Shown in pieces: positions 9,539 to 49,769 of a stretch of 64,000 nt of DNA. The first letter of the stretch is position 1. Each line of letters opens with the position of its first letter. The DNA lies in assembly GCA_037042185.1 (NCBI GenBank), contig JAXQJY010000032.1:992001-1056000 (forward strand). Direction: 5' to 3'. Source of the stretch: Sordariomycetes sp. S80-01Y. Taxonomy: Eukaryota; Ascomycota; Sordariomycetes. The notes under the pieces are model-generated. The model was not told where the DNA came from. It was given only the letters and a program-made list of their open reading frames with translations, and ran no database searches. The position numbers and the translations under genes are program-made.

Positions 9539-10926
9539 TTACCCTTGAAGGGTCAATTTACCAATGTAGACAGTAGCGAGAACTGAGCTCAAAATGGCGA
9601 AGAACAACCCAGCAATTCCAACTTCAATCCGTCTTTGCCAGAAGTACACCCTGGGGTGTCTCGTTTTCTGAGCACTCTTCTCCTGCGGGACCTTGGCTAG
9701 GGAAGGCAAATACTGGAAGTGGTAATTTGATGTGCCTCCCAGCCCACTTCGAATCACCTCTGGCAAGACTCTGCGGAACAGCTGCACCGCATGTTAGCTT
9801 CGTGACGCAGAGGCACGTAATACGCGGAGGTGTTGGTACTTACGCTGATAAAGTAGTCATCGATGCGTTTATCGAGTTTTTGTGCCACGGTGACGAGATA
9901 CACAATCGAGCATACCGCTTTGAAGGCAAGATACGCAAAAACTCCCGGCCTGCTGATGCCAAGCTGCTCACAGAGCTCCGGCTTGTTGAAGTGTCTACAG
10001 CCCGCATAGATGAGATCCTTGGAGAGGAAGAAGGGCGGACTGTCTGCCAGGCAGTCTATGAAGGCGTGCGCGATCTTCCGAGACGACTCGGTGGGCTGCT
10101 GCTTGCGGGCCAGCATGGCCATCATTGTATCCCTGGCGCGAGCAGCAGAATCAAAGTACTCCGGAGGTGACCCCAGAAGATAGCTCAAGTACTGATAGAG
10201 AGCAATGAAGTCTTCCGTCTCCGACTCGCCCGGGTTGATGCCCAGCTGCGGCAACTGCACCCAGACCGGATTGCAGCAGAAGAAGGTGACGGTCAGGATG
10301 GAGTCGTACACGTTGATTGGAAGCCCGAGTTTATCTGTGTCGTAGTAGCTCGGCCTCTCACTCGCCAGACGGTTGATCCTCCGACGAACGCTGGCGTGCA
10401 GAAGACGGACCCTGATCGTCGAGGCGTGGCCTCCACCTCCGGGCTGGATGGACGAAAGAGACTCTGTTGCCTCGACGACCCACTGGAACGTCTCGAGGAC
10501 GCGCTTCATAAGATTGCGCTTGGACAGGCCGCCCGTCCGAACCAGAACCTCTGCAGGTCCGAAGGCTGCCACGTTTTCCCCGATGAACCCTTGCAACGCG
10601 AAGCCGAGCATGTTTGCGACGGCGTACCGGTGGAAGAAGCGCTGCCCTCTCTCGATGGAGCCCCAATCTACCCAGTCCGGAACGCATTGCGTCTGTTCCC
10701 ATAGCCTTTGGAGAGCCGGATGGGCGGAATGGTGCTCGCTCAACACTGCAAAGAGGTCGCTTCGAGGGATCGGACAGCCTTTCGTGGAATCTTCGTTGAT
10801 GATCTCGTACAGCTTTTCGACGGCTTCTGAGGCTATGTCATCCTGCTCATATCTCAGGCGCGCCAACGTGTGGTCAGCAAGGAGCTCAGACCGTGGGTCT
10901 TCATACTTTCTGTCGGAACCTTCCAT
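9539..10926 (-). CDS. DUF2236 / ER-bound oxygenase (mpaB, rubber-oxygenase family)
   Basis: Two inferred exons, 10926-9844 and 9781-9539, joined across a 61-bp intron, give about 441 residues. The core has WVDWGSIERGQRFFHRYA near residues 88-105 and RVRLLHASVRRRI near 172-184. The histidine at 177 matches the conserved LxHAxxR signature of the DUF2236/mpaB and Lcp rubber-oxygenase family, a haem-type oxygenase fold. The short second exon adds a C-terminal membrane segment (AGLFFAILSSVLATVYIG), agreeing with membrane attachment. In mycophenolic acid biosynthesis MpaB cleaves a prenyl side chain oxidatively. Here the gene is divergent from a terpene cyclase 523 bp away, so oxidation of its terpene product is a reasonable guess. 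The exon join is supported by both splice sites and the restored frame. Confidence 0.85.
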
Positions 10927-11449: not shown

Positions 11450-12547
11450 ATGGAGTCCAAGTTTGGAAGCAGAGTCGCTGTCCGACTTCCGGACTTGTTC
11501 GTCTCCTTCCTCGCAACGCCTCCCCGCACCAATCCTGGCTACGCGGATGTCCGTCGAGAATCCGAGACAGCTGTCTGCCGGTAATAAAAAGAATCTCTGT
11601 TTCTTCGACGTCTCGAGTTTCGAACGCTGATGATTGGGAACAGCGCATGTGAACTGGATGGATATGTAGCCAAGGCTGTGGGTCTCTGTGACTTTGCCTA
11701 CTTTGCAGCTATCATGGCGCCCGACGCTGACTTAGGGAGGCTTCGAACAATCTGTGACTGGGGAAACTGGATTTTCCCCTTCGATGACATCTTCGACGAT
11801 GGCGAGTGCTCGAGAGACTATGCCAGTGCTCAGGCCATAATAGGGCGGGTGTTGTCTGTCTTCGACGCAGATATCAGCAGAGAGAAGCATTGGTCGGATG
11901 AGACGGCTCCGATCGTGACCTTCCATGATGATATTTGGGTGCGAATTAGAGACGCAGGACCGTCCAGCACGGCTCGACTATACGCACGAGCCATGGTGGA
12001 CTACTGCGCAGGAACTCTAGACCAGGTTCAGTATGCGGCGACGCCACATAATGGATACTGCCTGGAGCAGATGCTAGCCATGCGGCGGAAATCAGTATGC
12101 GTGGCTGCGTTATTTGCTCTCGTCCAATTCGGCCAGCAGATCCTGCTTCCCGACTTCGTGCAAGAACATCCTGTTGTCAAGGAGATTGAGACGATCGGCA
12201 TTGACCTCACCTTGATGCACAATGACATTCTGTCTTACGACAAGGAAGATGCCGAAGGCGTCCCGCACAATTTGGTTGCCGTGTGTCGCATGCAGGGCAT
12301 GTCCGCTCAGGAGGCAGTTGACCGTGTGGCAGAGCTCATAGACGGACGGCATGAGCAGCTCGAGAAGGCCATGAACAGCATCCCAGCATGGGACGAGGCA
12401 ACAAACCTCCAATTGGCGCTATATACGGAGGGCATACGGGACGTGGTCAAAGCCAACTTGTACTGGAGCTTCCGCACTGCCAGATTCTTGACTCAGGAGC
12501 AGAAGGATTCGATTATGACAAGCCGAATCATATATCTCAGAGAATAA
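11450..12547 (+). CDS. class I sesquiterpene cyclase (terpene synthase)
   Basis: Inferred exons 11450-11580 and 11644-12547 give 344 residues. The intron (63 bp) begins GTAATA and ends CAG, and joining restores a continuous frame (TAVCRACELDGY). The aspartate-rich Mg-binding motif DDIFDD is at residues 91-96 within WGNWIFPFDD, and the NSE triad is at about 237-245 (NDILSYDKE: N237, S241, E245). Both metal sites are therefore complete. The C-terminal WSFRTARF takes the place of the usual W...RY pair. Length and motifs fit fungal class I cyclases that ionise farnesyl diphosphate, resembling the trichobrasilenol/brasilane-type group, but the product cannot be predicted. It has no signal peptide and should be cytosolic. 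It is paired with a DUF2236 oxygenase across a shared promoter. Confidence 0.92.
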
Positions 12548-19454: not shown

Positions 19455-20735
19455 CTATTCAGAGATGAAGGTTGCCTCGGAGAAGATCTGACCCTCTTCC
19501 TCAATGACCTCGTCGCCAATCTTGAGCTTCAATGTCATCTTAGGGGTGTACTACTCTTGTTAGTATGCGTTGGCCGTGGGTAGTGATGAGTCCATACTTG
19601 GTAAATGTAGGGTTTCGTGCCGGCTACACCAGCGACAATCTGCTTGACGAAGCCAGGGACCTCGTCCATGATATCGACGCGGTCCACTCGCTCGCCAAAC
19701 TGGCCTTCAATGACACCTTCGATGGGCTTGCCATCCTCGCTCTTGCCGTTCCAAACGAAACGAACGCCAGACGGTTCAGGCCACCCGTTGTCAGCATCCT
19801 CTTTGACGGTGGTGTGAGTCGCCTTGTTGGCACAGCCAGCCACAACCACGCCATCGTTCTTGACAATGGCCCCGACGTTGACGACGGTGGAACCGTAAGA
19901 CGGCGGGGTGGTGAACTCCATCATCACAGCCGAGTAGTTGGGGCCCTGGAAGTCAACAAAGTTCCATTTGGAGGCAGCGTGCTGGGGCTTCATGCCCTGC
20001 AGAGCGTAGGAGTATAGCGCCTTCCCCTTGAAGTCGACTGGTCCCTCCTTGGTCGTGATGGTGCCTTCGGCTGTGCATCGCGGCCAGAAAGCGTGGCGCA
20101 GGGATCCCCAAGGGTTCTTGGGGTCGGTTCCGAACAGAGAAGTGCCTGTCTTTCCTCCCTGGACGCCTGGTGCGGCACGGGTAACCTTCAGGTTGACAAT
20201 AGCGCGCTCGTCGTTTGCGCTCTTGATGGTGTAGGTGTTGCCGTCCTCGGAAAGCTCGAGTGCGCAGTCGTCGGCGTAGAATGCCGTCTTGTCCGCGCTG
20301 AAGTCGATGTTGTTCAGGGGGGTGGAGCACCACAGGTGCGGCTTGCCGGCTTCGGTCGAGAAGATTTTGACGTTGAACTGGGCGGTAACACGAATGCCGC
20401 TTTGCGCTTGTATTAGCGGAGGATTGAAAGAGTGCTTTGCAGGCCGTACGCAATGTTGCTATAAATGACCTGTGCCATTCCGATCTTGCCCTCATCCGAG
20501 ACGAAGTAGAAGGTCTGAGTCTCAACGTTGGTGGTGTCCATGACCTTCCATTTGAAGTCATCGCGGGTCGTCTCAGTGTAGGTGTTCTTGTCGGCTTCGT
20601 CGGCGACAGAACGGATGGCTTCGGGGCCGTAGATGGGCTCCTGGGTGCCGGCCACGTTGGCCAGCCTCGAGGATGTTAGTTTTGCTACTTGCATGGCAGG
20701 GAGGATGCTCACTGTTGCTTTGCCCAGTTGAACAT
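19455..20735 (-). CDS. SVF1: Svf1-type survival factor (lipocalin-like)
   Basis: Four inferred exons (20735-20713, 20665-20450, 20399-19598, 19550-19455) give 378 residues. Exon 1 encodes only MFNWAKQQ, joined to [17 protein letters not shown], the standard Svf1 opening. Further family marks are [61 protein letters not shown] and the end [10 protein letters not shown]. Svf1 proteins are two-domain lipocalin-like proteins; in yeast Svf1 protects from oxidative and cold stress and has been tied to ceramide transfer between ER and Golgi. No membrane segment is expected, and the amphipathic N-terminus is the likely membrane contact. The third-exon acceptor (CAAAG, 20401-20400) was chosen because it restores the conserved AGIR. 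It is divergent from the GATA-factor gene. Confidence 0.95.
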
Positions 20736-21632: not shown

Positions 21633-23317
21633 ATGGAGGACGGGGAGCAGAGCCTTCCTCAACAGGGTATCGACCCTATCTCGCGACCCAGCTCTACATC
21701 TGCCGCTGAGGCTGCAGTGTCCCAATTGCTGGGAATGACTGGCGGTCTGCCAGAGGGTGCCAACAGCAATGGGGAGTCAGCGCACGATCCCAGGTACGTC
21801 AAGCATGAATGCGAAAGGTTTTGCATGCGAGGACCGGCAGCTGACGCGATTGGTAGTCTCATGAATGCGACACCATCACAGCCAGAGCATCAGCCAGAGC
21901 AACCGCACCAGCAGCCGCACCAGCAACAACAGCAGCCTGTCACTCCTTATAATGGCGCAACTCCAGCAGCGACCGCTGGTGGTAATCATAATGGCATGGT
22001 GAGTGTGTTTTCTATCTTCTGAGATCCATTGTTTTGTTTGCCCCTTTTTTTGATGTCCTTATCGCGAATCGCGACCCCAGTCTCTATCTGATCTTGGGCG
22101 GCCTTGAAAAAAAAGTCTTATCGCTCGGCGCGCCCGTCGCTATCACGTGTCTTATCACCGCCAGCGCGAATCAGCCCCACGCAGGTGCAATCATTCTGCA
22201 TGCCGCTATCTCTTATCAGCGCCCGCCGGATGGGGCGACGCTTTTTTTGTCCTGGCGTTTCTTATCGCATCGCGATTGTATTTATCGATTCCACCCGCTC
22301 GAGATGCGCTTCTGGGTCGCAACAACTGCTCAGATGCACACACTTTCATGATGGCCTCTAACGTTTCCTCACAGCCTACCTGCCAGAATTGCAGTACCTC
22401 GACCACGCCGCTATGGCGTCGAGACGAATACGGCTCGGTCCTGTGCAACGCTTGCGGCCTGTTCCTTAAGCTACATGGGCGCCCTCGGCCTATCTCTCTC
22501 AAGACGGATGTGATCAAGAGCCGGAATCGAGCCAAGGTGATGCGTCCAGATGTACAGGGCAAGAAGAAGGTATGTCAAGTCCATGCCTCAAACCCAGGAC
22601 ACCGGCGCATGTGTCGGCGCATCTGTACACCCTTATCCTGAGATCGCAGCTAACAGATATTGCTAGACACCAGCCTCATCGCAGTCCAACGCTACGCGAA
22701 AGCCGCCCCACGCCGACGGCACGACTGAGTCTCCCATCTCGCGAACCGGCACCCCTTCGATGTACACCCAGCCACTGCCTGACTTCATGATGGACAGCAA
22801 CCCCTACTCGGGACCTAGCTTTTCGAATGGGGACGGATCAAATTCGCCGATGAACGGCGACACACCTCAGACAGCTGAACAACTCATAGCAACCAACTCT
22901 AGTCTCAAGACACGAGTTCGGGAGCTAGAGCTAATCAACGAGCTGTTCCGAGGTCGGCTCTCCCAGCTTGAGCAACAAGAAGCGGCGGCTAGGAGGGGGA
23001 ACGAGGTCGCCGGAGCCGAACAGACACAGCTTCGAGAGCAGCTCAAACAAAGCGAAGAAACCCAAGGGCAGCTAGCTGCGCAGCTCGAGGATAGCCATCA
23101 AAGGGAACGGAGTCTCAAGAAGCGCCTCGATGAACTCGAATTAGAGATCGAGGGGCTCAGAGGCGAGCCCGAGAGGCCAGCTAAGAAGCAGCGCGTTGAG
23201 AGTCCAGTGCCCGAGGGCGAGGAGGGCGTGAGAGGCAACCCAGGAGGTGACGCTCAAGTTTCGGCTGAATCATCGGCTGCCCCCGAGCCCGAGATGGCGG
23301 TGGATACCGAGTCCTAG
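21633..23317 (+). CDS. areB: GATA-type zinc-finger transcription factor with coiled coil (AreB/ASD-4-like)
   Basis: Inferred exons 21633-21793, 21857-21998, 22375-22569 and 22667-23317 give 382 residues. The single GATA finger is C104-X2-C107-X17-C125-X2-C128 ([18 protein letters not shown] then CNACG), followed by the basic [22 protein letters not shown] arm. Residues about 237-331 are a long heptad-rich coiled coil ([15 protein letters not shown] onward), presumably for dimerisation. One finger plus C-terminal zipper is the architecture of Aspergillus AreB and Neurospora ASD-4, negative or modulating regulators in nitrogen metabolism and development. A QP/QH-rich stretch lies before the finger. 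The first intron is 63 bp, so the frame stays open if it is retained. The 376-bp second intron contains a cluster of GATA sites, described separately. Confidence 0.92.
22058..22286 (-). promoter_or_regulatory. cluster of six GATA sites inside the GATA-factor intron
   Basis: CTTATC (GATAAG on the other strand) occurs at 22058, 22117, 22151, 22212 and 22261, and TTATC at 22282. All lie in the 376-bp intron just before the finger-encoding exon. Chance predicts about 0.1 copies of the hexamer per strand in this length. Autoregulation by this or another GATA factor, or an internal promoter for a shorter isoform, is inferred. Confidence 0.7.
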
Positions 23318-24363
23318 AATGCTAGGCCTACTGCTTCTGCGGATTCTGGGCTGAAGATTCCAAATATTTGCGACCGAGGATGATGAAATGAGATTCTTTT
23401 TTCGGAATAGCGAAGCTTGGCTATCGGATGGACTTGCTCTCTCATGTTCTGTAATGCTTTTACTGGTACGCCGGATGGGTTCATGATTAGGGAAAAGCTG
23501 TTTTTGAGGCGCTTTGGAGGGAGTGTTTGGACGCTATGTGTCCTCGGACTGGAGTTGAAGGACTGCTATAGGAGAGCCCCTAGCCGCGGCTACAGATAAA
23601 CATACGTAATTCATTGTCATGATCAAGAGTGCGCAATAGATTCATTGAGTATGTCGCAGGCTGAGGAAGCTGTCACGGTTGTAGTCTGGCAGGGCAATAA
23701 TCTACCAACATTAACCTACTCGTACCTCGCATCGTTTGTGGGAATTAGATGGACCACAACTTTTGCTACTGTATATTCGACACTTAACAAGACAGGTTAC
23801 CTAGTAAGTAGTCGAGGACTTCAGCACCCGCGCGCAGAGTACTGCTGTGTCCATAGTAAATATCCCAGAGACCATAGTGCCTCTACTTGAGCACCTAGAA
23901 GCTGTGCATCTTTGACCCAAGCAAGCCAGCGCGCGGAAACTTAATCTGCGGTCGCGACCAAGCATAATTTATGGGGGCACAGCTCTAAAAGGAGTGTGAA
24001 GCTCCTGGGTGCTAGGCCTAACAGTGAGGCAGTTAAGTAGACGACGTTGCTGTCACGTGGCTAGCCTGATGTTGGTCCCAACATGAACAAATGCACACCA
24101 CTGGTTGCCAAACTTCACCTTACTGTTTTTTCGAAACTTCTCAACTTCGTGACTTGGTATCTTTCGCCACTGATCATTCACGATCAAATCCTGTATTGCC
24201 AAGGACCTATACCGTAGCGACTTCGCAACTCTTGGGCCTGGCCCCTAGGGTAAGCGCCCGCGGCCGACGACGTGCCAGGACAGCCAGGCGCGCAACCATC
24301 GATACCGGACTGTAACCTTTTTCTACTTCCCGTTAACGGGTTATTGAACCGATACCCGCTCAG
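23318..24363. other. intergenic, no gene seen
   Basis: The stretch contains the 3' flank of the GATA-factor gene and the promoter of the histone variant gene. A small open frame at 23645-23890 shows no family features. Confidence 0.5.
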
Positions 24364-25104
24364 ATGCCTGCTATACCACAGCGCGGCGGGCCGTCCAAGT
24401 CCCACACTGTCGTTGCTCTGGATGCTCCCAGCGTCGGCGCTGGCCGTGGTAAGCAAGGCGGCAAAGATGGAGGGCAGCTCAGCGGGAAGCACATCGCGAA
24501 AGCAGCGCGTCATCGGTAAATGATCATCTCTGGATTGTCGAAGAAAGCGGACTAATTCATGGCGTAGCAAGATCGTGAGAGATAGCATTCGAGGCGTGAG
24601 TGAGTCTGACCCACACCCTCTGGCATATATTCATACTAATCATCATTTCCAGCCAAACCAGATATCCGGTCAGTACAACCAGAGGGACTCTGCCGTCTCC
24701 CGATCAGCCGTACTAATATGCGGCAGTCGTCTCGCCCGCCGCGGAGGCGTCAAGCGCATCAGTGCGCTTTGCTACGAAGAAACTCGTGCCGCGCTGAAGC
24801 AGCGTCTCGAAGCCGTACGTGCAGAGCTCCGCACCGACGAGGAGACTACGCTAACGAGACAGATCCTAAGCCGATGTGTCATGTACGTTGAACACGCCAA
24901 TCGAAAGACGGTCACCGCTAGCGATGTACGTGTGGCCTTTTGTGGAGTTGTCAGTATTCTCGGACAAGACGCTGATATCTTGGCTAGGTCATCCATGCTC
25001 TCCGGGGTCTGGGCAATCCGATCTATGGCTTTGATCCCGGCACATTCAAAGACCAGAGGACCAAAGCCCGCGCGGCGTTTCACGACGCCGTCGAACGTCA
25101 CTAA
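24364..25104 (+). CDS. divergent histone H4 variant (H4v-like)
   Basis: Five inferred exons (24364-24515, 24568-24599, 24653-24668, 24727-24925, 24988-25104) give 171 residues; canonical H4 has about 102. An N-terminal extension of about 25 residues precedes a tail aligning with GRGKGGKG...RHRK (GRGK 27-30, GGK 32-34, K42, K46, RHRK 49-52). Then come [22 protein letters not shown] (58-79; canonical [22 protein letters not shown]), YEETRAALK, a roughly 16-residue insertion (about 97-113), [15 protein letters not shown] (120-134) and an IYGFDPG end followed by a 20-residue extension. Exon 3 is only 16 bp; all four introns have GT-AG ends and TACTAAT or similar branch sites lie in introns 2 and 3. 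Histone-fold residues are largely kept, so it looks functional. Neurospora crassa has a divergent H4v gene, and this may be its counterpart. Deposition site and function are unknown. Confidence 0.88.
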
Positions 25105-27014: not shown

Positions 27015-28311
27015 ATGTCGACGACTACCACGATGGAGGCTCACCACGTCGGCGTCCGCGAGCTGGATCTCAGCGCCTGCCATGTCAACACGCTGTCCGA
27101 CAAGATCAACGCTGTGCCCGGACTGAGGACCAGCACTGGTAAGTTTGACCAATTTTTTCCCTTTCTGTTCTTTTTGCAGCATGGGGGCTGTCGTCATCCA
27201 CCATCCATCTCAGGGGCCGCCTGTCCACTGAGGATTCGGATGGTGTCACCGTGGGGATCCAGCACCGGCTGCCCCTCCATCGCTGCAGATGCCCCGCCTC
27301 CGACAACTGCCGGCACGACACAGTGTCACACTGAATATGATATGTTCTTGATATTTCCCTCAATCCCGAGCATGAGGCACGTCGTGGAGATAAGGAACAC
27401 ACCATGGCTGACTTGCGATAACAGCCTTCTTCAGCTTCCTGCGGGCTAATCTTGTGCTGTCGCCATCCGCCATGTCCTCCTGCGCCAACACCCCCATCCT
27501 CGATGCTATCCCGTCACATGCATACCAGCACCCTCACGCTCCGGCCTCACCCTCTCCCTTGTCGACGAATCCGCCTCTGACGCCCATCGATGACATCCCC
27601 CCATTGACTCTGGAGCCCCTGCACGAGGATGAGGACAAGCGCGATGGACTGCACCTGGTTGCCGATTCCGTGGCTGAGATGAGGCAGAAGGCCAACAGGA
27701 ACCTCGTCAAGCACCCCATCTGCCTCGCGGGGCTGGCTGCCAGTCTTACCGCCATCTATCAATTCTCAAAGGGTGATCCAGGCCTGGGTATCATGTTAGC
27801 CTGCGGAGCCACCATGGCCTACCTCCTCGCCATAAGATTGGCAACGAATGGCTACATATCCCTCGCCGAGGGCATGTCCTGGTCCTGGCTCCTCAACCAC
27901 GACACCAACGTTCAGGATATCCTCCTGGGGGCGCGCTTCAACGGCGAGCTCGTAGCCACCCTCGTCCTGCGGTTGCAGCCTTCCTATTCCTTCCCCAGCA
28001 CGTCCTCGTCGCGACGCAAGAAGTCCGGCTCTCTGACCCTCAAGGGCGGAAAGGGCATCATCCGCGCTTGGACCACCAAGCTCAAGTACCGAGGACAGGG
28101 TATCGGGATGGACCTGTTGGCTGAGGCTGTTCGCTTCACCAAGGAGAAATGCGGCAAGGACGCCGAGGTGGGCTTCGCAAAGGAGCACGCCAACAGTGTC
28201 ATGGTGCTGCCGGAGACTTTTAATGGGGGGTTCCGGAGGGACGAGGTCAGGGCCGCCAAGGCTTTGGAGACTGCCTTGGCGGACTGGGAAGCCAGTCGGA
28301 AGAAGAGGTAA
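27015..28311 (+). CDS. membrane-anchored GNAT-type acetyltransferase
   Basis: Inferred exons 27015-27138 and 27425-28311, across a 286-bp intron with a GTAAGT donor, give 336 residues; the join restores RTSTAFFSFLRANLVL. A Pro-rich segment leads into a likely hydrophobic hairpin at about 139-183 (PICLAGLAASLTAIYQF and GIMLACGATMAYLLAIRL). The C-terminal half has strands ending in IIRAWTTKLKYRGQGIGMDLLAEAVRF. The R/Q-x-x-G-x-G/A acetyl-CoA loop is RGQGIG at about 264-269, and a helix follows. NAT8-like proteins share the idea of a membrane hairpin before a GNAT fold, but I do not recognise this fungal family by name. Substrate unknown. A less likely reading is that translation starts at the second-exon ATG near 27472. 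Confidence 0.75.
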
Positions 28312-38568: not shown

Positions 38569-41500
38569 CTATTCCGGGTTGACGATCTTGCCGCCCTCAT
38601 CGCCCTCGCCGTTGTGGCCGGCTCCATTGTGGGACGGCTTGGGCGCTGGTGACATGAGAAGGTCCTTGGGCGGTATAGCCTTCATTTCGAGACCTTCGGA
38701 GTCACTGGCCTGCCGTTCCTGTTCTTCAAAGGTGAAGGCCTCGGAGAGATTGACGGCCAAGAAAGTCTTGGGAAGCTTGACTCTGGAGATCATGTTAGTG
38801 CGCTGCCACTCCTCGATCGTGATAAGGGAGGGGGGCTTACTGGTTGAACTTGGCTCGCAGCGTCTTGATGACCTGGAGCCAATCGGCGTGGGACGTCAAG
38901 CTTCGCCTGGGCGCAAACCCGATGGAGTGTCTGCTGTCAAGCTGGACATGCAGAGGATCAAAGACATGGCAGCCGGGGCTGATGGTAATGCGGATGCTGT
39001 ACTCGAACTTGGGCTCAGAGTCAGCGCTCTCTGGCGGCTGCTTCATCTCCGACTCATATAGCTCAAAGCAGATCTGTGAAAGGTAGTCGAGCTCCGGGAT
39101 GGTGCTACGCTTGATCTTGGTTTCGACGCCACCCTCGATGATGCAGTTCAGGAGAGTGTAGATGTGCGACTCCTTGGTGAAGTAGAAGAATGACTTGGCG
39201 TCATTGGATGCTTGCATCTCTTCGAGATCCTGAACAATCTCTTTCAACAACGGCAGCGAGGTGAGGAGACCGATCTCCAGCTTCTCGCTGTCGGAAATAC
39301 CGTACTCCTGCGGGCAGATGAAGTCGAAGAGAACCTTGGATAGCTTGTACAGCTCTTGCAAAGGCTCATGGTGTGGATCGGTCTGCGCAGCTTTGGTCTC
39401 GGTGCCCTTGTACAGCTTGAAGTACGTCTCGTGGGGCGACTCCTCGCCAATGTGTCGAAGGCCGTTGAGGAAGGACCGTCTTCTGAACAACTTCTTAACT
39501 CCCGACCGCTGGGGATCTGAACCATCTTGAGAGCCATTGGGTGGCGAAGGTTGAACTGGTTTCTCCTTGTCGGCTGGCTTGTTCTCGTCGGCTGACTTGG
39601 TCGACTTGTTCTCATCGGGCTCGCGCTGCTTCCCATCCTTCGCATCGTACTCTTCGAGCATGTGGTTGGGCGGCGTGAATACCCATTCCAGGAACTGGCG
39701 GTTGTGCAGGGCGTCGAACTTCATCGTATCGTAAAGCTCGGAGATCTTGCTAGGATCGACCTTCTCCCCGTCACAGAACTCAGAGAAGAGTTTCTCCCAC
39801 CTTTCACGGAATAGCTCGGCATCCTCGCCGGAACACCACCGCGACTGAATGGTTTGGATCGCATTGGCCTGCGAGAGTGACGAAGCAAGCGACGAGCTAG
39901 AGCCCTGACCTGCAATCTTCTCGCTCTCACTGCTTGGGTTGGAGATGTTGTTCAGCGAGGTCGCCGCGCCGCCGCTGAAGAGCTTTTGGTAGTTGTGATG
40001 CATCACACGGCGATGGAACTTCATCAGCTGCACAACTCGCGTCTGGACCTCAGAAGGCTCAGGCATGTTCTCTGGCCAAGCAAACTCCGGAGGCCGCTCA
40101 TTGCCCTCGCGCAGCAAACCCTTGAGCTTCTTCTTCACCTTGTCGGTCTCATCCTTGGCGGCGTTCGAGTCGTCCAGAAGGTCCTTACGGATGGTAATGA
40201 AATCCTCGGGAATGTCTTTCTTACCCAAGAAGGACGCGGCCCAGATCTGAGCGCTGGTGGTAACCCGGCGCTCGGAGCTGCTGAAGACGTGGACTTCGTC
40301 TAGAATATCGCGGTTGAGAAGCATAAGGTCGTTTCGCATGTTCTCGCCTAGCTCTTGGGACTGGTACCGCGCCGAGTGGGTTGGCTCGCCTCCCCATTTG
40401 ACGATGAGCTGAAGCTTGTCGAGCACCAGACGTTCCTCCGCGGCAGTAAACTTGGACATCGTGACACCAGAGAGCGAGTCGTGCCGCTTAGGTGGAATGT
40501 TAGGAGAGTGGTCCTTGTCGTCATTGCCCTCCACCTTTTCGTGGCTTTCCTGAGTCGGAGGCGGTGACGGCTCGTTTTCCTTTAAATCTGGCATCTCTTG
40601 GACGACATCTTCCGTCTTCTTCTTCCTGAACATTGGCTTAATCTGCACCTTGGTGCCGGTCCAGCTGCCCTTCTTGACCAGGACGTTTCGCAGGGCCTTG
40701 AGCTTGCCGCGGTCCTCGACGCCTTCCATGAAGGCCTCGTCAACAGCAGTAATGACACTAGCAAGCGCCGCCTCCCCAACAAGCAGGACCTCCTCCTGAT
40801 GTCCCTTCAGCAGGTTAATGAAGGGACCCGTGTGGAAAGTGAATTTAAACTTCTGCTTGGGCGTTCGGTCGGCATGGCGAATGACAGACACGATACCCTT
40901 GAGTTTCCATGAGTGTTTGGGAAGCGGCGGCGGAGCCTCGCCTTCACCACCCTGCGTCGCTGGCAGAGTGCCAGGAGCAGAAGCTGCCGCATTCTTTACA
41001 GATCCAGGCGCTGAAGCTGATGACGGGGGGATGGCATCTACTGGTGGCGGTAACAGTGACATTGGCGTCGTTGCAGCGCTTGGGCCTGTCGAGGGGAGCA
41101 ATGCATCCGCTCGGGGCGAGGCTGCTACACTGGGTGCTGCCGATGGGGGCTCTGTTATCGGGGCTTCTGAGAGGGACGCAGGCTTTTGAGCTGGTGCTTT
41201 AGCCCCCGACGGATGCAGCGATGCTGAGCTTCGTTCACGGTCCTTCAACGATGGGTTGTTGGAGCGGCTCATCGGGTCGATCTCGGACACAGCCGGCGAC
41301 GGCGCGGGACTGGTAAGGCCGCCACGGCGAAGCCTCTCCTTGACGAAAAGGTCTTTCAGAATGTTGGCACATTGGTCGTAGTACTCGTTGTTGTCCTTGA
41401 CGAAGCTCCAACCATTGACATCGATAACGTAGCTCTTGCCAGACGCTCGCAACAGATCGAACCCACAGACTCGCTGACCGAATGCGACAGCAATACGCTT

Positions 41501-43659
41501 GGCGACCTCCTTCTCATCTGGATCAAGCTCGGTAACGTACCGCAACTCCTTGCCGTGCTGATTCCGGCGGACAACACCGTCGACCACGGGAGACTTGCGC
41601 GTCTCAGCGTGGCAGTAATTCGCGCCGACTGTGTAAGCTTTGACATCCTCTGCATTATCAACTTGCATGAAGCTTTCGTAAATATAGCTGCTCTCTGGTT
41701 CTGTAATAGCCCTTGGGGTGTTGAGGTCGGCCACATAGTCCGAGCTCTTGTTGCCAATCTTGCGGAAGAGCTTTCGCGCACCACCGCCAGCCGAATTAGG
41801 GAAGTAGATGACGATGTTGTGGTCCTCACCACTCATGGGCTTTTCGACAAAGGGCTTTTTGAGCAAGGCCCCATCGACGCTTAGGACATCACCGTCGTCC
41901 AACAGCTCCACCTTGCGTGGCGGCGCGTAGCTCTCGGGGCTGCAAGGCTCCAAGGTCACACCGCCAACATCTTTTGCGTACTTTACCATTTCTGGCGTCA
42001 AGAATTGGGGTCCGCCGTCGCGGCTGACCTCGAGTCTCTTGGGCGTTCGCACCTTGATCTGGTCCAGCACGGCCAAGCACAAACGCCGATCCCAGAGGAG
42101 CTTCTGCAGTGGCACATCATTGACACAGAACGGCTTTCTTGTCTTGACGTATGCAATAGCCTTCTCCAGTGGGAAGCCATCCGAGTAGAAACTAATCAAG
42201 TAATCGCATACCGGCCAATTCTCCACCTCTGACCCGATGTGAGTTTCCGTGTAAGCCAAAACGTGGGGGCATGGGGGTCCCTTAACGTACCTTCGTCTAA
42301 AATGACCTTGTCTCCGAAAACAACCACATCGAATTCCCTGTTTGCGATGACCCTGTTGAGGATATTTCGACTCGGCTTACTTCTCGCCTTAACGTCCAGG
42401 GCGCAGATTCCAATAACGCCCCATGGTGCTGGCTTGACTTCTTCCTTCTCCGGACGTTGGTGAGAGGCTCGGTCGCTACCAGGAGAGTGGCTGCTGTTCG
42501 CCGTGCTTCCACTGAAACGACGCTTGACTCTCGAGCGGGACCTATCGGGTTGAGTGCGCGAGGCGGTCGCCGTAGTTGCTGTTGTGCTTGTAGTCTCGGA
42601 ACGTTGATTCCTTCTCATCAGATCAAGTGGCTGACTATGAGGGTCCCTGGGGGCGAGGGCATGGCTCTGAGACGTCTGTCCGCTGCCGGTTGCTGAGCTG
42701 GTCGTGACAGTAATGTTCGACAGCCCAGCCTCCGGCGGCGTAGACGCCAGACTCTTTCCCGAAGACATCAGGTACGAAGCACTCCGCGTTCTGCCTACAG
42801 GATCAGATGTGGGCGCCGGCGCCGAGGGTGAAGGAACAGGTACACCACGAGCGGAAGCGAGAGAATATACAGAGTTGCCGCTCAGGCGCCTGGACTGTAT
42901 GTCCGATAAGGAGCTCTTGGCCGTGAGAGCAGGCTCAGGCAATGCTGACCACCAGGTGGTTTGCGTGCTCTGCCCTGCTGTAGTTTGCGTGCTCGCTGTT
43001 GCGTCGCTGGGCGCGGGGAGTAATCGAGGGGTATCGTTATCGTCCAGCGCCACGTCACCGCTTGGTGCTCCAGAAGCACTGCCCAAGGAAGCGAGATCTT
43101 CGGAGAGGATGGAGTCCGAGGTGCCGCTGTATGTTCTCTGCGCGGGGACGTGGGACCGCGGACTTCTCAGGGAGCGTAGCGAAGGGGAGTGGGTTGAGAA
43201 GACTGGTGGTTGAGCGTGGACGTCTGTTGTGCCGGGCTCGGCATAGCGGCTCTTGCGGGAGGCAGAGACGGAGGAGGAGGATACGCTGCGGGAGTGGCCT
43301 CGGCGGTGATGCGGCAGACTGCTGGGCTTGAAAGAATGCTCGGTAGAGACAGTGATGCTGCCGGGAATGTCGATTGATGCTCGTGCCGGGGTTGCGTTGT
43401 CGGCGGGGTTGTTGACGTTGTCGAGGGTGGGAGGAGCGTCGGCTGCAAAATTCGAGTCGGCCATGCTGCCGGATTGAGGGTCTCCAGCTTTTTGTCCCTT
43501 TCTGTCTCGTTCAGGGCAGTCGGAGGATAGGCCGGGCTGGCCAGCACCCAAGCCAGTGGAGGTTTGAATTTTTGCTAGCGACCGGGACGGGGGGCGACGG
43601 CGGGTTAAGGTTCTTCTTGGTGGAGGACTTGGAGGGGCTGCCGATTGCGGTGTCGTCAC
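38569..43659 (-). CDS. VIP1: inositol hexakisphosphate kinase/phosphatase (Vip1/Asp1, PPIP5K)
   Basis: Inferred exons 43659-42291, 42228-38841 and 38782-38569 join in frame to 1656 residues, or about 1591 if translation starts at the ATG at 43464. Residues 1 to about 410 are a Ser/Pro/Thr-rich extension. The ATP-grasp kinase domain begins at [16 protein letters not shown], crosses the first junction as [16 protein letters not shown], and has [12 protein letters not shown] and [14 protein letters not shown] second Pro/Ser-rich linker precedes the histidine-phosphatase-like domain, whose RHADRTPK is at about 907-914 and [10 protein letters not shown] near 1477-1486. The enzyme makes 1-diphosphoinositol phosphates and its phosphatase half removes them; in fission yeast Asp1 it controls microtubules, phosphate signalling and polar growth. 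It is longer than yeast Vip1 because of the disordered parts. The 64-bp and 58-bp introns have standard ends. Confidence 0.95.
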
Positions 43660-46552: not shown

Positions 46553-49500
46553 ATGCCGCATTCAAATAATGATGGTCCGCTAGTCAAGCGCCAGAAGGTC
46601 GCGACCGTGGCCAAGGCGTCCGAGACGTCGTCGAACTCTTCGAGGATCTTTGCGCCTTACAGAGTAGGACCCATGGACCTCCCACCTTGTTGCTCAATCA
46701 CTAACCTGCCAGACCGTCGGTCTAGTGTCTCCCACTGCGGTCCCTTTTACCTCGATTCCCCTCGGAAAGACCAGTTTCCAGATCACCACCTCGGTCGGCC
46801 GATCCCTCCAAACATACGACCTGAAGCGCGGTCTCAACCTCGTCTTCGTCAGCCGGCCGCAGACGCCTGCCGATATCACCGCGACTCTCGCATGGAAACA
46901 ACAAGTATTTGCGGCATGGGGAGGATCAAAGAAGGGCGAGCCTCAGGGTATCTGGGTCACGCAGCGTGGAAAGAAGGTTGATGAGATGCAGCTCCCAGGG
47001 GACATCACTGAGCCAATCAAGCAGATCATGGTGATGGGATCATGGATCATTGCCTGCGGGACGACCCGAATTGAGGTTTTCAAGACTGCGACGCTCGAGC
47101 ACTACACCACGATCCATACCATGGCGGCCGCGAAGGGTGGGAACGAAATCTCGGGCGGCGTAGTCAGTATGCCTACGTTTTTGAACAAGATCTTCGTCGG
47201 GCGCAGAGATGGATGGGTCGAGATCTGGAACGTAAGCACTGGCAAGCTCATTTATACGATTTTGCCACCGAAGCCCGACTGCGGTGCTGTCACATGTCTC
47301 GAGCCTACGACAGCGCTATCACTGATGGCTATCGCCTACGAGAGCGGGACACTGGTAATCTCGAACATCTTGACGGACAAACGAGTCCTTGAAATTGAGG
47401 CCGGTGGACCCGAGAACCCTGTCAACAGCATATCGTTCAGAACCGATGGTATGGGTGCGGGTCAGGATGGCAGGAAGGACGGTGTCATGGCTACTGCGAC
47501 TCTATCGTCCGGTGACATAACTTTCTGGGACCTCAATAATGGTGGACGGGTCATGGGTGTCCTAAGGAGTGCTCATAACCCGCCTTCTCGGGACGGCAAG
47601 ATAGTACGAGGCGGCGTGAGCAGGGTCGAATTTCTCACAGGGCAACCTGTCATCGTCACCAGCGGACGCGACAACTCTTTGAAAACTTGGATCTTTGACG
47701 AGACACCTTTTAACCCCATCCCCAGAATACTACACCAAAGGAGCGGTCACGCAGGGTCTGTCAACTGTCTGGAGTTCCTGCCCACCGACTTCGAGGGCGC
47801 CGACGCGGGCAACAAGTGGCTGCTCAGTGGCGGACAAGACCGCAGCTTGTGGGGTTGGAGTTTGAGACGCGACGGTCAGAGCACTGAGCTCAGCCAGGGT
47901 GCTATTCGGAAGAAGGCCAAGAAGGTGGGTATACTTGCCCACAATGCCCTTGCCCATGGACCGAGCACTACGCTCGAAGATCTCAAGGCCCCTGAAATTA
48001 CGTGCATCGCCTCTTGTCTCAATCGAGATGGTGGAATGGGTGCGTTGCCTGGCAAGCAGGCAATATGGCAAAAGGGGCAGCAAAAGAAGGCAGACGCAGA
48101 AGTCAGCGGCATGACGGGCTGGGAGAGTGTTGTTACGGCGCACAAGAACGATCCCCACGCCAGGACATGGTTCTGGGGTCGCAAGCGAGCTGGTCGGTGG
48201 GCTTTCGCTACTGGCGATGGCATGAACGTGTCTACCGTTACGATCAGTCCCTGCGGTTCGTTTGCGGTTGTTGGTTCGGAGGGCGGCAGCATTGACATGT
48301 ACAACCTCCAGTCTGGCGTACATCGCCAGCGTTTCCCCTCAAGACTGACGCCAGCACAAGCGCGGCAGCTGAAAATGCAACAGCTTCGGCAAGCAGACGA
48401 GGTCGTTCATTTCCAGACGGAGAGCGGCAAATTCCCCGCGGGTACCGGAAAGCATCGCAGCGCTGTTACAGGTCTTGTCGTTGACTCAATGAACAACCAC
48501 GTCGTTTCTTGCAGCGCAGATGGTACCATCAAATTTTGGGACTTCCTGACGGGCAATCTGCTCGAGGAGATTTCATGGGCGCCTATGACGTTCCCCACCG
48601 CTTGCAAGTACCATGCCACGAACAATCTGCTGGCTTTTGCCTGCGACGATCTCTCGATTCGAGTAGTGGACATGGAGACGAAGAAGACTATTCGCGAATT
48701 CTGGGGGCCAACGGATAAGATCAACGACTTCTGCTTTTCTTACGACGGGCGATGGGTTATCGCTGCCTCGCAGGACAAGACAATTCGTGTCTGGGATCTG
48801 CCAACCAGCCACCTGATCGACGCTATCAAACTCGAGAAGCCTTGCAAGGCGATTGCGATGTCCAACACCGGCGAGTATCTAGGTGCTACGCTAGAAGATC
48901 AGCTAGGTGTCACGATTTGGACGAACAAGTCATTGTTCAAGCATGTTGCGACGCGACAAATATCCGAAAAGGAGGCATCCGTCGTTGAAGGGCCGACGGT
49001 GTCGGGCGAGGGCAATGCTGGCATGTTGGATGGGGCTTTCGAGGAGGATGAAGGCGAAGATGAGGACGCCATTGTGGCACCTACCGTTGACCAACTCAGC
49101 TCTGATCTGATGAGCCTAAGTCTCATTCCTAAAGCGAGGTGGCAGACTCTTCTGCATCTAGACTTGATCAAGGAAAGGAACAAAGCTAAGGAGGCCCCTA
49201 AGCTGCCAGAAAAGGCTCCTTTCTTCCTACCGTCGACCACAGGCCAGCCGTCATCAATAGGCAATAACGAGAAGACAGCCGATGAGGAGGAATCCAACAA
49301 GTCTCGCGTCACAAAGCTTGACCAAGCTCGTTTGCAGGAGAAGTTCGCAAGCAAACTTCGAGAGGGTGCTGCATCTGGCAACTGTAAGTCATTGTTGTTA
49401 TTGCTTTCTTGCCCAAGACTAACGCGATCAGATGACGCTTTCATTAACCACCTCAAGTCCCTCTCTCCCTCGAGCGCGGACCTTGAGCTCCGATCTCTGT

Positions 49501-49769
49501 CCTCATCGAGCGACGAGTCCGCCAACGAGCTGCTGCACTTCATCAAGGCGCTCACAGCTCGTTTGCAAGCAAGGCGCGATTACGAGCTGACCCAAGTGTG
49601 GATGACGGTCTTCTTGAGGTTACACTCAGACGAGGTCATGCAAAACCGGGAGCTATTGGACGCACTGAAGGAGTGGAAGGGCTATCAGGAGAAAGAGTGC
49701 GGGAGATTGGATGGACTGGTCGGGTACTGTAGTGGTGTGGTGAGCTTCCTGAGAAGCCCAAGAACATGA
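46553..49769 (+). CDS. UTP21: U3 snoRNA-associated WD40 protein Utp21
   Basis: Inferred exons 46553-46663, 46713-49383 and 49432-49769 give 1039 residues. The 49-bp first intron joins SSRIFAPYR to TVGLVSPTAVPFTSIPLGKTSFQI, the standard Utp21 beginning. Two tandem WD40 propellers follow, with blades such as NSLKTWIFDE, GGQDRSLWGWSL, SADGTIKFWDF and SQDKTIRVWDLP. The C-terminal Utp21 domain starts around DLMSLSLIPKARWQTLLHLDLI and ends with the helical YDAFINHLKSLSPSSADLELRSL region. Utp21 is part of the UTP-B subcomplex of the small-subunit processome in the nucleolus, needed for early 18S rRNA processing. The last intron is 48 bp and in frame, so retention would add 16 residues rather than a stop. 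Confidence 0.96.

Follow-up and report, generated by a model that had tools for sequence, protein, structure and literature searches.

A putative H4E/H4v-type histone H4 gene with six predicted exons, found beside two canonical H4 genes

A gene on the + strand at 24364-25104 is very probably an orthologue of the histone H4 variant H4E (hheA in Aspergillus, H4v in Neurospora), with six exons and a product of 155 residues. It lies in the window, a 64 kb stretch of contig C15; the genome comprises 30.9 Mb in 16 contigs. The open reading frames of this region encode an H4-like histone, and both conserved core motifs quoted in the initial annotation, of 18 and 11 residues, are present. That annotation had described a divergent H4 variant related to Neurospora H4v. 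The family is correct, and the additions to both tails and the unusual spacing of tail lysines are real; the internal insertion, the exon count and the protein length have to be revised.

Judged by its sequence, the gene is a new member of H4E; the family itself is already known. H4E has been described in most Pezizomycotina (Flipphi et al. 2024, PMC10878826), and this 2024 survey is the main source for such genes across Pezizomycotina in the literature searched on the variant. The same survey reports no stable tree for H4E. The assignment to H4E rests on intron positions and phases, splice motifs, the alignment to H4, the presence of svf1 nearby and the occurrence of a lone variant beside canonical H4 genes, taken together.

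Gene model and the predicted fourth intron

Exon 1 (24364..24515, 152 nt) encodes the N-terminal tail and ends within the Arg19 codon. A start at a more upstream ATG in the unspliced frame is ruled out by an in-frame stop at 24334 with no ATG in between; by eye, a possible 5'UTR intron would run from GTAAGC near 24251 to CAG at 24363, directly before the ATG. Intron 1 (24516..24567, 52 nt; GTAAAT ... ACTAAT ... TAG) is in phase 2, as is the published i1 (PMC10878826). It is followed by exon 2 (24568..24599, 32 nt), intron 2 (24600..24652, 53 nt, phase 1; GTGAGT ... ACTAAT ... CAG), exon 3 (24653..24668, 16 nt) and intron 3 (24669..24726, 58 nt, phase 2; GTCAGT ... ACTAAT ... CAG). Exon 4 (24727..24814, 88 nt) extends from the Arg35 codon to residue 64 in canonical numbering. 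Predicted intron 4 (24815..24862, 48 nt, phase 0; GTACGT ... GCTAAC ... CAG) separates it from exon 5 (24863..24925, 63 nt), which encodes residues 65-85. Intron 5 (24926..24987, 62 nt, phase 0; GTACGT ... GCTGAT ... TAG) precedes exon 6 (24988..25104, 117 nt with the stop codon), which runs from residue 86 to YGF and on through a 23-residue C-terminal extension. All of these features are on the + strand.

The published H4E model has exons of 29-32, 16 and 88 nt, then one of 63 nt outside Eurotiomycetes, and intron phases 2, 1, 2, 0, 0 (PMC10878826). The exons of 32, 16, 88 and 63 nt found here, with the same succession of phases, fit this model if the 48-nt stretch is counted as an intron. 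The 63 nt is the value in the body text, with which exon 5 was compared; the legend of Figure 1 disagrees with it, spacing the last phase-0 introns of the model gene 60, 18 and 21 nt apart. A further 3' phase-0 intron, which the legend model has 21 nt downstream of the one before, is absent, and exon 6 is continuous to YGF. Since the survey reports H4E intron losses in different taxa, this last intron is not taken as required.

In the initial annotation the gene had five exons and 171 residues, with a 16-residue insertion in alpha-2. Redoing these joins yields the same 171-residue protein, and its 199-nt exon 4 equals 88 + 48 + 63 nt. The extra 16 residues most likely come from translating an intron left unspliced, and the claim of a lengthened alpha-2 is therefore dropped. 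Splicing out 24815-24862 gives six exons of 152/32/16/88/63/117 nt, intron phases 2, 1, 2, 0, 0 and 155 residues. The 48 nt are divisible by three and contain no in-frame stop; they start right after nt 88 of the 199-nt exon, which matches the published phase-0 position of intron 4 exactly (PMC10878826). The donor is identical to that of intron 5. The branch-like GCTAAC lies 7 nt from the intron end, compared with 9-12 nt in the other four introns.

An intron scan (length 44-80 nt, donor GTRNGT, branch NCTRAY, acceptor YAG) returned a single match in the 199-nt exon, namely 24815-24862. In nine other ORFs of the window (15,903 nt; seven with Pfam matches, one without and one not submitted to Pfam) there was one match, and no match combined phase 0 with a length divisible by three. 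By inspection, three of the five introns of the H4E gene satisfy the donor rule; the scan is therefore strict rather than lax.

Protein comparisons point the same way. The 155-residue form is recognised by the Pfam families Histone (E 1.7e-4; 22.3 bits, short of the cut-off at 26.4) and TAF (E 7.7e-4; 20 bits, cut-off 21), whereas the 171-residue form has no Pfam match at E<=0.001. Among PDB H4 chains the top score is 114.9 bits for the 155-residue form and 97.9 bits for the 171-residue form. Of the PDB matches of the shorter form, the best 60 of 96 all carry the name histone H4, one of them that of H2A as well. The BLOSUM62 local score against the genome's own canonical H4 is 293 for the spliced form and 268 with the insert. 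The 171-residue model was rejected on its lack of a Pfam match at this threshold and its lower PDB scores, although at E<=0.001 the PDB yields 96 distinct sequences for either form.

It is extremely unlikely that the gene has five exons and normally yields a 171-residue H4 with a longer alpha-2. The open frame across the 48 nt would allow such a product, and 5-16 additional core codons are present in some Eurotiomycete H4Es; these codons, however, are found elsewhere, directly upstream of a fifth intron specific to Eurotiomycetes (PMC10878826). An open frame of 48 nt arises by chance in about 1 of 6 cases (for random codons and lengths), which is hardly uncommon; the GTACGT start, the GCTAAC near the end, the terminal CAG and the exact i4 position all speak against a coding insert, as does the loss of the Pfam matches. 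Regulated retention of intron 4, with both forms made and the 171-residue protein as a minor isoform, is also very unlikely. A retained transcript would run on without an early stop, given the open, in-frame sequence of the intron; against this, the word 'retention' is absent from the main text of PMC10878826. The six-exon model does away with what would have been a remarkable feature, a longer histone-fold helix, and adds one H4E with an intact predicted splice structure to the family.

Divergence from canonical H4

Two canonical H4 genes, on contigs C2 and C9, encode identical proteins; the C2 copy is divergently arranged with an H3 gene. Both have phase-1 introns following nt 10 and nt 148, at positions other than those of H4E. 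H4 matches in two genome searches (at least six and at least eight matches) fall only on C2, on C9 and at the H4E locus on C15. H4E is the single further H4 found beside the two canonical genes, which is a lower bound. A Pfam histone search of the genome gave nine matches with none on C15; H4E was probably missed there because of its short exons and its divergence.

Two other regions with histone-family matches were observed in the genome. Firstly, a 553-residue open frame at C10:1201000-1203500 has a C-terminal histone-family match of 35.7 bits, above the Pfam cut-off; by eye it looks like a kinetochore protein of the CENP-T type. Secondly, the first 4.4 kb of C7 contain an H2B gene (match C7:4191-4352) and a second histone-family match (C7:2154-2399), and each of the two matches includes a stop. 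The stop inside the H2B match looks, by eye, like intron read-through.

The core of the 155-residue form, R17-F100, aligns with canonical H4 of the same genome without gaps; 53 of 84 residues are identical and 31 are substituted. Residues 34-48 carry no substitution, and the density of substitutions is higher beyond residue 63 (19/37) than before it (12/47; Fisher p = 0.022, with the split chosen post hoc). Third-position GC is 0.61 in H4E, compared with 0.72 and 0.76 in the canonical H4 genes.

Both tails are extended, as had been claimed. RHRK is preceded by 48 residues, Met included, in contrast to 16 in canonical H4, or 17 when its Met is counted; YGF is followed by 23 residues instead of 2. 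Lysines of the N-terminal tail are spaced differently, with 5 K and 2 R against 4 K and 1 R in canonical H4. The H4E tail is about 31 residues longer; position 16, in register, is Ala, with a Lys just before it. In many H4Es, K16 is replaced by Arg or a non-polar residue (PMC10878826).

Divergence on this scale, with 31 of 84 core residues changed and third-position GC below that of the canonical genes, could also be expected of a functionless, decaying H4 copy. According to the survey, A. nidulans strains lacking hheA show no detected phenotype, and some lineages have lost the gene (PMC10878826). Decay is nevertheless highly improbable here, because all exons are open, the splice sites of the five introns are at the published positions and the gene's RIP-type indices (0.67, 1.16) are near those of the window (0.62, 1.24). 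Decay by RIP in particular was rejected on these indices. Conservation of residues 34-48 also argues against decay, as does the presence of H4E in most Pezizomycotina species, which implies maintenance (PMC10878826).

Genomic neighbourhood

An svf1 gene (19997-20526, - strand) is located about 4 kb upstream of H4E, with a Pfam Svf1 match in two pieces (C15:1011997-1012398 and 1012422-1012526). In Aspergilli, hheA lies between nudA, which encodes a dynein heavy chain, and svf1; this order is kept in Eurotiomycetes and Dothideomycetes, and the available text of PMC10878826 makes no claim of it for Sordariomycetes. The sole match to the dynein MT-domain in the genome is on contig C11 and is thus unlinked to H4E.

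Upstream of H4E, the nearest gene detected is a GATA factor gene of the ASD-4/AreB type, with a GATA finger and an Asd-4 domain on two ORFs (22147..23317, + strand; this span does not mark the gene ends). Its kinship is presumably to AreB. Factors of the ASD-4/AreB type have roles in nitrogen regulation or ascus development. Because of this neighbour, and because A. nidulans hheA responds to nitrogen starvation, GATA sites upstream of H4E were examined. With expectations from single-base shuffles, there are 0 HGATAR sites against 0.96 expected in 24000-24363, and 2 against 3.0 in 23318-24363. Nitrogen control through GATA sites is unsupported, as HGATAR is not enriched upstream. Downstream, an ORF at 27454..28311 (+ strand) matches GNAT acetyltransferases (E 1.6e-4) and represents part of a gene.

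Other genes were observed further away in the window. A terpene synthase family 2 ORF (11630-12547, + strand) adjoins an MpaB/rubber-oxygenase-type ORF (9754-10926, - strand); the two may form a small terpene cluster. An ORF at 38837-42259 (- strand) with histidine-phosphatase, PPIP5K2 N-terminal and ATP-grasp matches belongs to an inositol pyrophosphate kinase gene of the Vip1/PPIP5K type. For the Utp21 protein at 46725-49769, 5oql chain O, presumably from Chaetomium thermophilum, is by a wide margin the closest PDB chain (1610.9 bits); the next matches, presumably from yeast, start at 488.2 bits. This points to a filamentous ascomycete, probably of the Sordariomycetes, as the source of the DNA.

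Possible function and comparison with known H4 variants

The role of such proteins had been called little known, and this agrees with the literature, though the family has been covered by a survey of fungal genomes and studied experimentally in A. nidulans (PMC10878826). In that species H4E is nuclear, H4E-GFP overlaps H1 in nuclei, and H3 is bound in split-YFP assays with overexpressed fusions. The protein level is low; hheA expression is highest in nitrogen starvation at 37 C. Deletion of hheA or its alcA-driven overexpression gives no phenotype, while growth is mildly affected when the canonical H4.1 promoter drives H4E. Loss of H4.1 is not rescued by H4E.

Aligned with the canonical H4 of its own genome, this one H4E sequence has several changes at or near the H2B-facing side, namely D68R, Y88H and R92G; K91R is conservative. 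Further core changes are V57A, T60Q, F61R and K77N, which may touch H3 or DNA faces too. Y72 is kept, and Y88 is presumably another tyrosine of the tetramer-dimer contact. R35, R36, R39, R45, R78 and K79 are also kept; in H4 these residues contact DNA. One H2B exon of the genome reads DIFERVATEAS and retains the partner glutamates E71 and E76, where the numbering is presumably that of human H2B.

Salt bridges between H4 R92 and H2B E76 and between H4 K91 and H2B E71 are found at the H4-H2B contact, and loss of R92-E76 destabilises nucleosomes (PMC8235166). H4 D68 is among hotspots affecting residues that include those of histone-histone interfaces (PMC10462747), and mutations of H4 Y72 affect the tetramer-dimer contact (PMC2873916).

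From the changes at or near the H4-H2B contact (D68R, Y88H, R92G), it is tentatively proposed that H4E pairs with H3 but may hold H2A-H2B weakly; this mechanism is somewhat doubtful. H3-H4E tetramers would form on DNA and would then bind H2A-H2B poorly, and the resulting particles would be short-lived or partly assembled. Such H4E particles would be present at a low level, under special conditions such as nitrogen starvation. The mild growth phenotype of H4.1-promoter-driven H4E in A. nidulans is of the kind that a particle of altered stability might give.

The same observations could also fit a protein that acts mainly outside nucleosomes, for example as an H3 carrier or sink competing with canonical H4 for chaperones. 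The low protein level, H3 binding and lack of rescue of H4 loss in A. nidulans (PMC10878826) are consistent with such a role, as are the altered residues on the H2B side. It is rather unlikely, however, given that the DNA-contacting arginines and lysine listed above are kept and that H4E-GFP overlaps H1 in nuclei. Weak docking of H2A-H2B is preferred. A bolder and quite speculative extension of weak docking, itself improbable, is that H4E may be a built-in nucleosome destabiliser, by which tetrasome- or hexasome-like particles would be made on purpose, in low amounts and under special conditions. If true, this would explain why H4E binds H3 yet does not replace H4. The H4-H2B contact offers a concrete surface to test in the H4E family.

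H4E can be compared with several known H4 proteins. It shares with the canonical H4 of its genome 53 of the 84 residues between R17 and F100; it differs in its longer tails and in the positions of its introns. Trypanosome H4V, human H4G and the Oikopleura testis H4 are also H4 variants, but belong to distant lineages; compared by description, they are 80-85% identical to their own H4, have lost the C-tail or have three residue changes (PMC10878826).

H4E as described from A. nidulans hheA is similar to the window gene in exon sizes (29-32, 16 and 88 nt, with 63 nt holding outside Eurotiomycetes), intron phases, longer divergent tails, a kept H4 core, a changed residue 16, as in many H4Es, and the presence of svf1 nearby (PMC10878826). 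The two differ in several respects. The Eurotiomycete insertion and fifth intron are absent from the window gene, a distinction made by description only, and it also lacks the last intron of the published model. The tails of A. nidulans H4E exceed those of canonical H4 by 5 (N) and 7 (C) residues; those of the window gene are longer. At the window locus svf1 and H4E are separated by the gene for a GATA factor, and the dynein gene is unlinked.

Neurospora crassa H4v is an H4E orthologue according to PMC10878826. The gene, hH4v, is credited to Hays et al. 2002 in both PMC10878826 and PMC6703697, the latter of which mentions the Neurospora H4 variant as one of unknown function. N. crassa probably belongs to the same class as the source genome.
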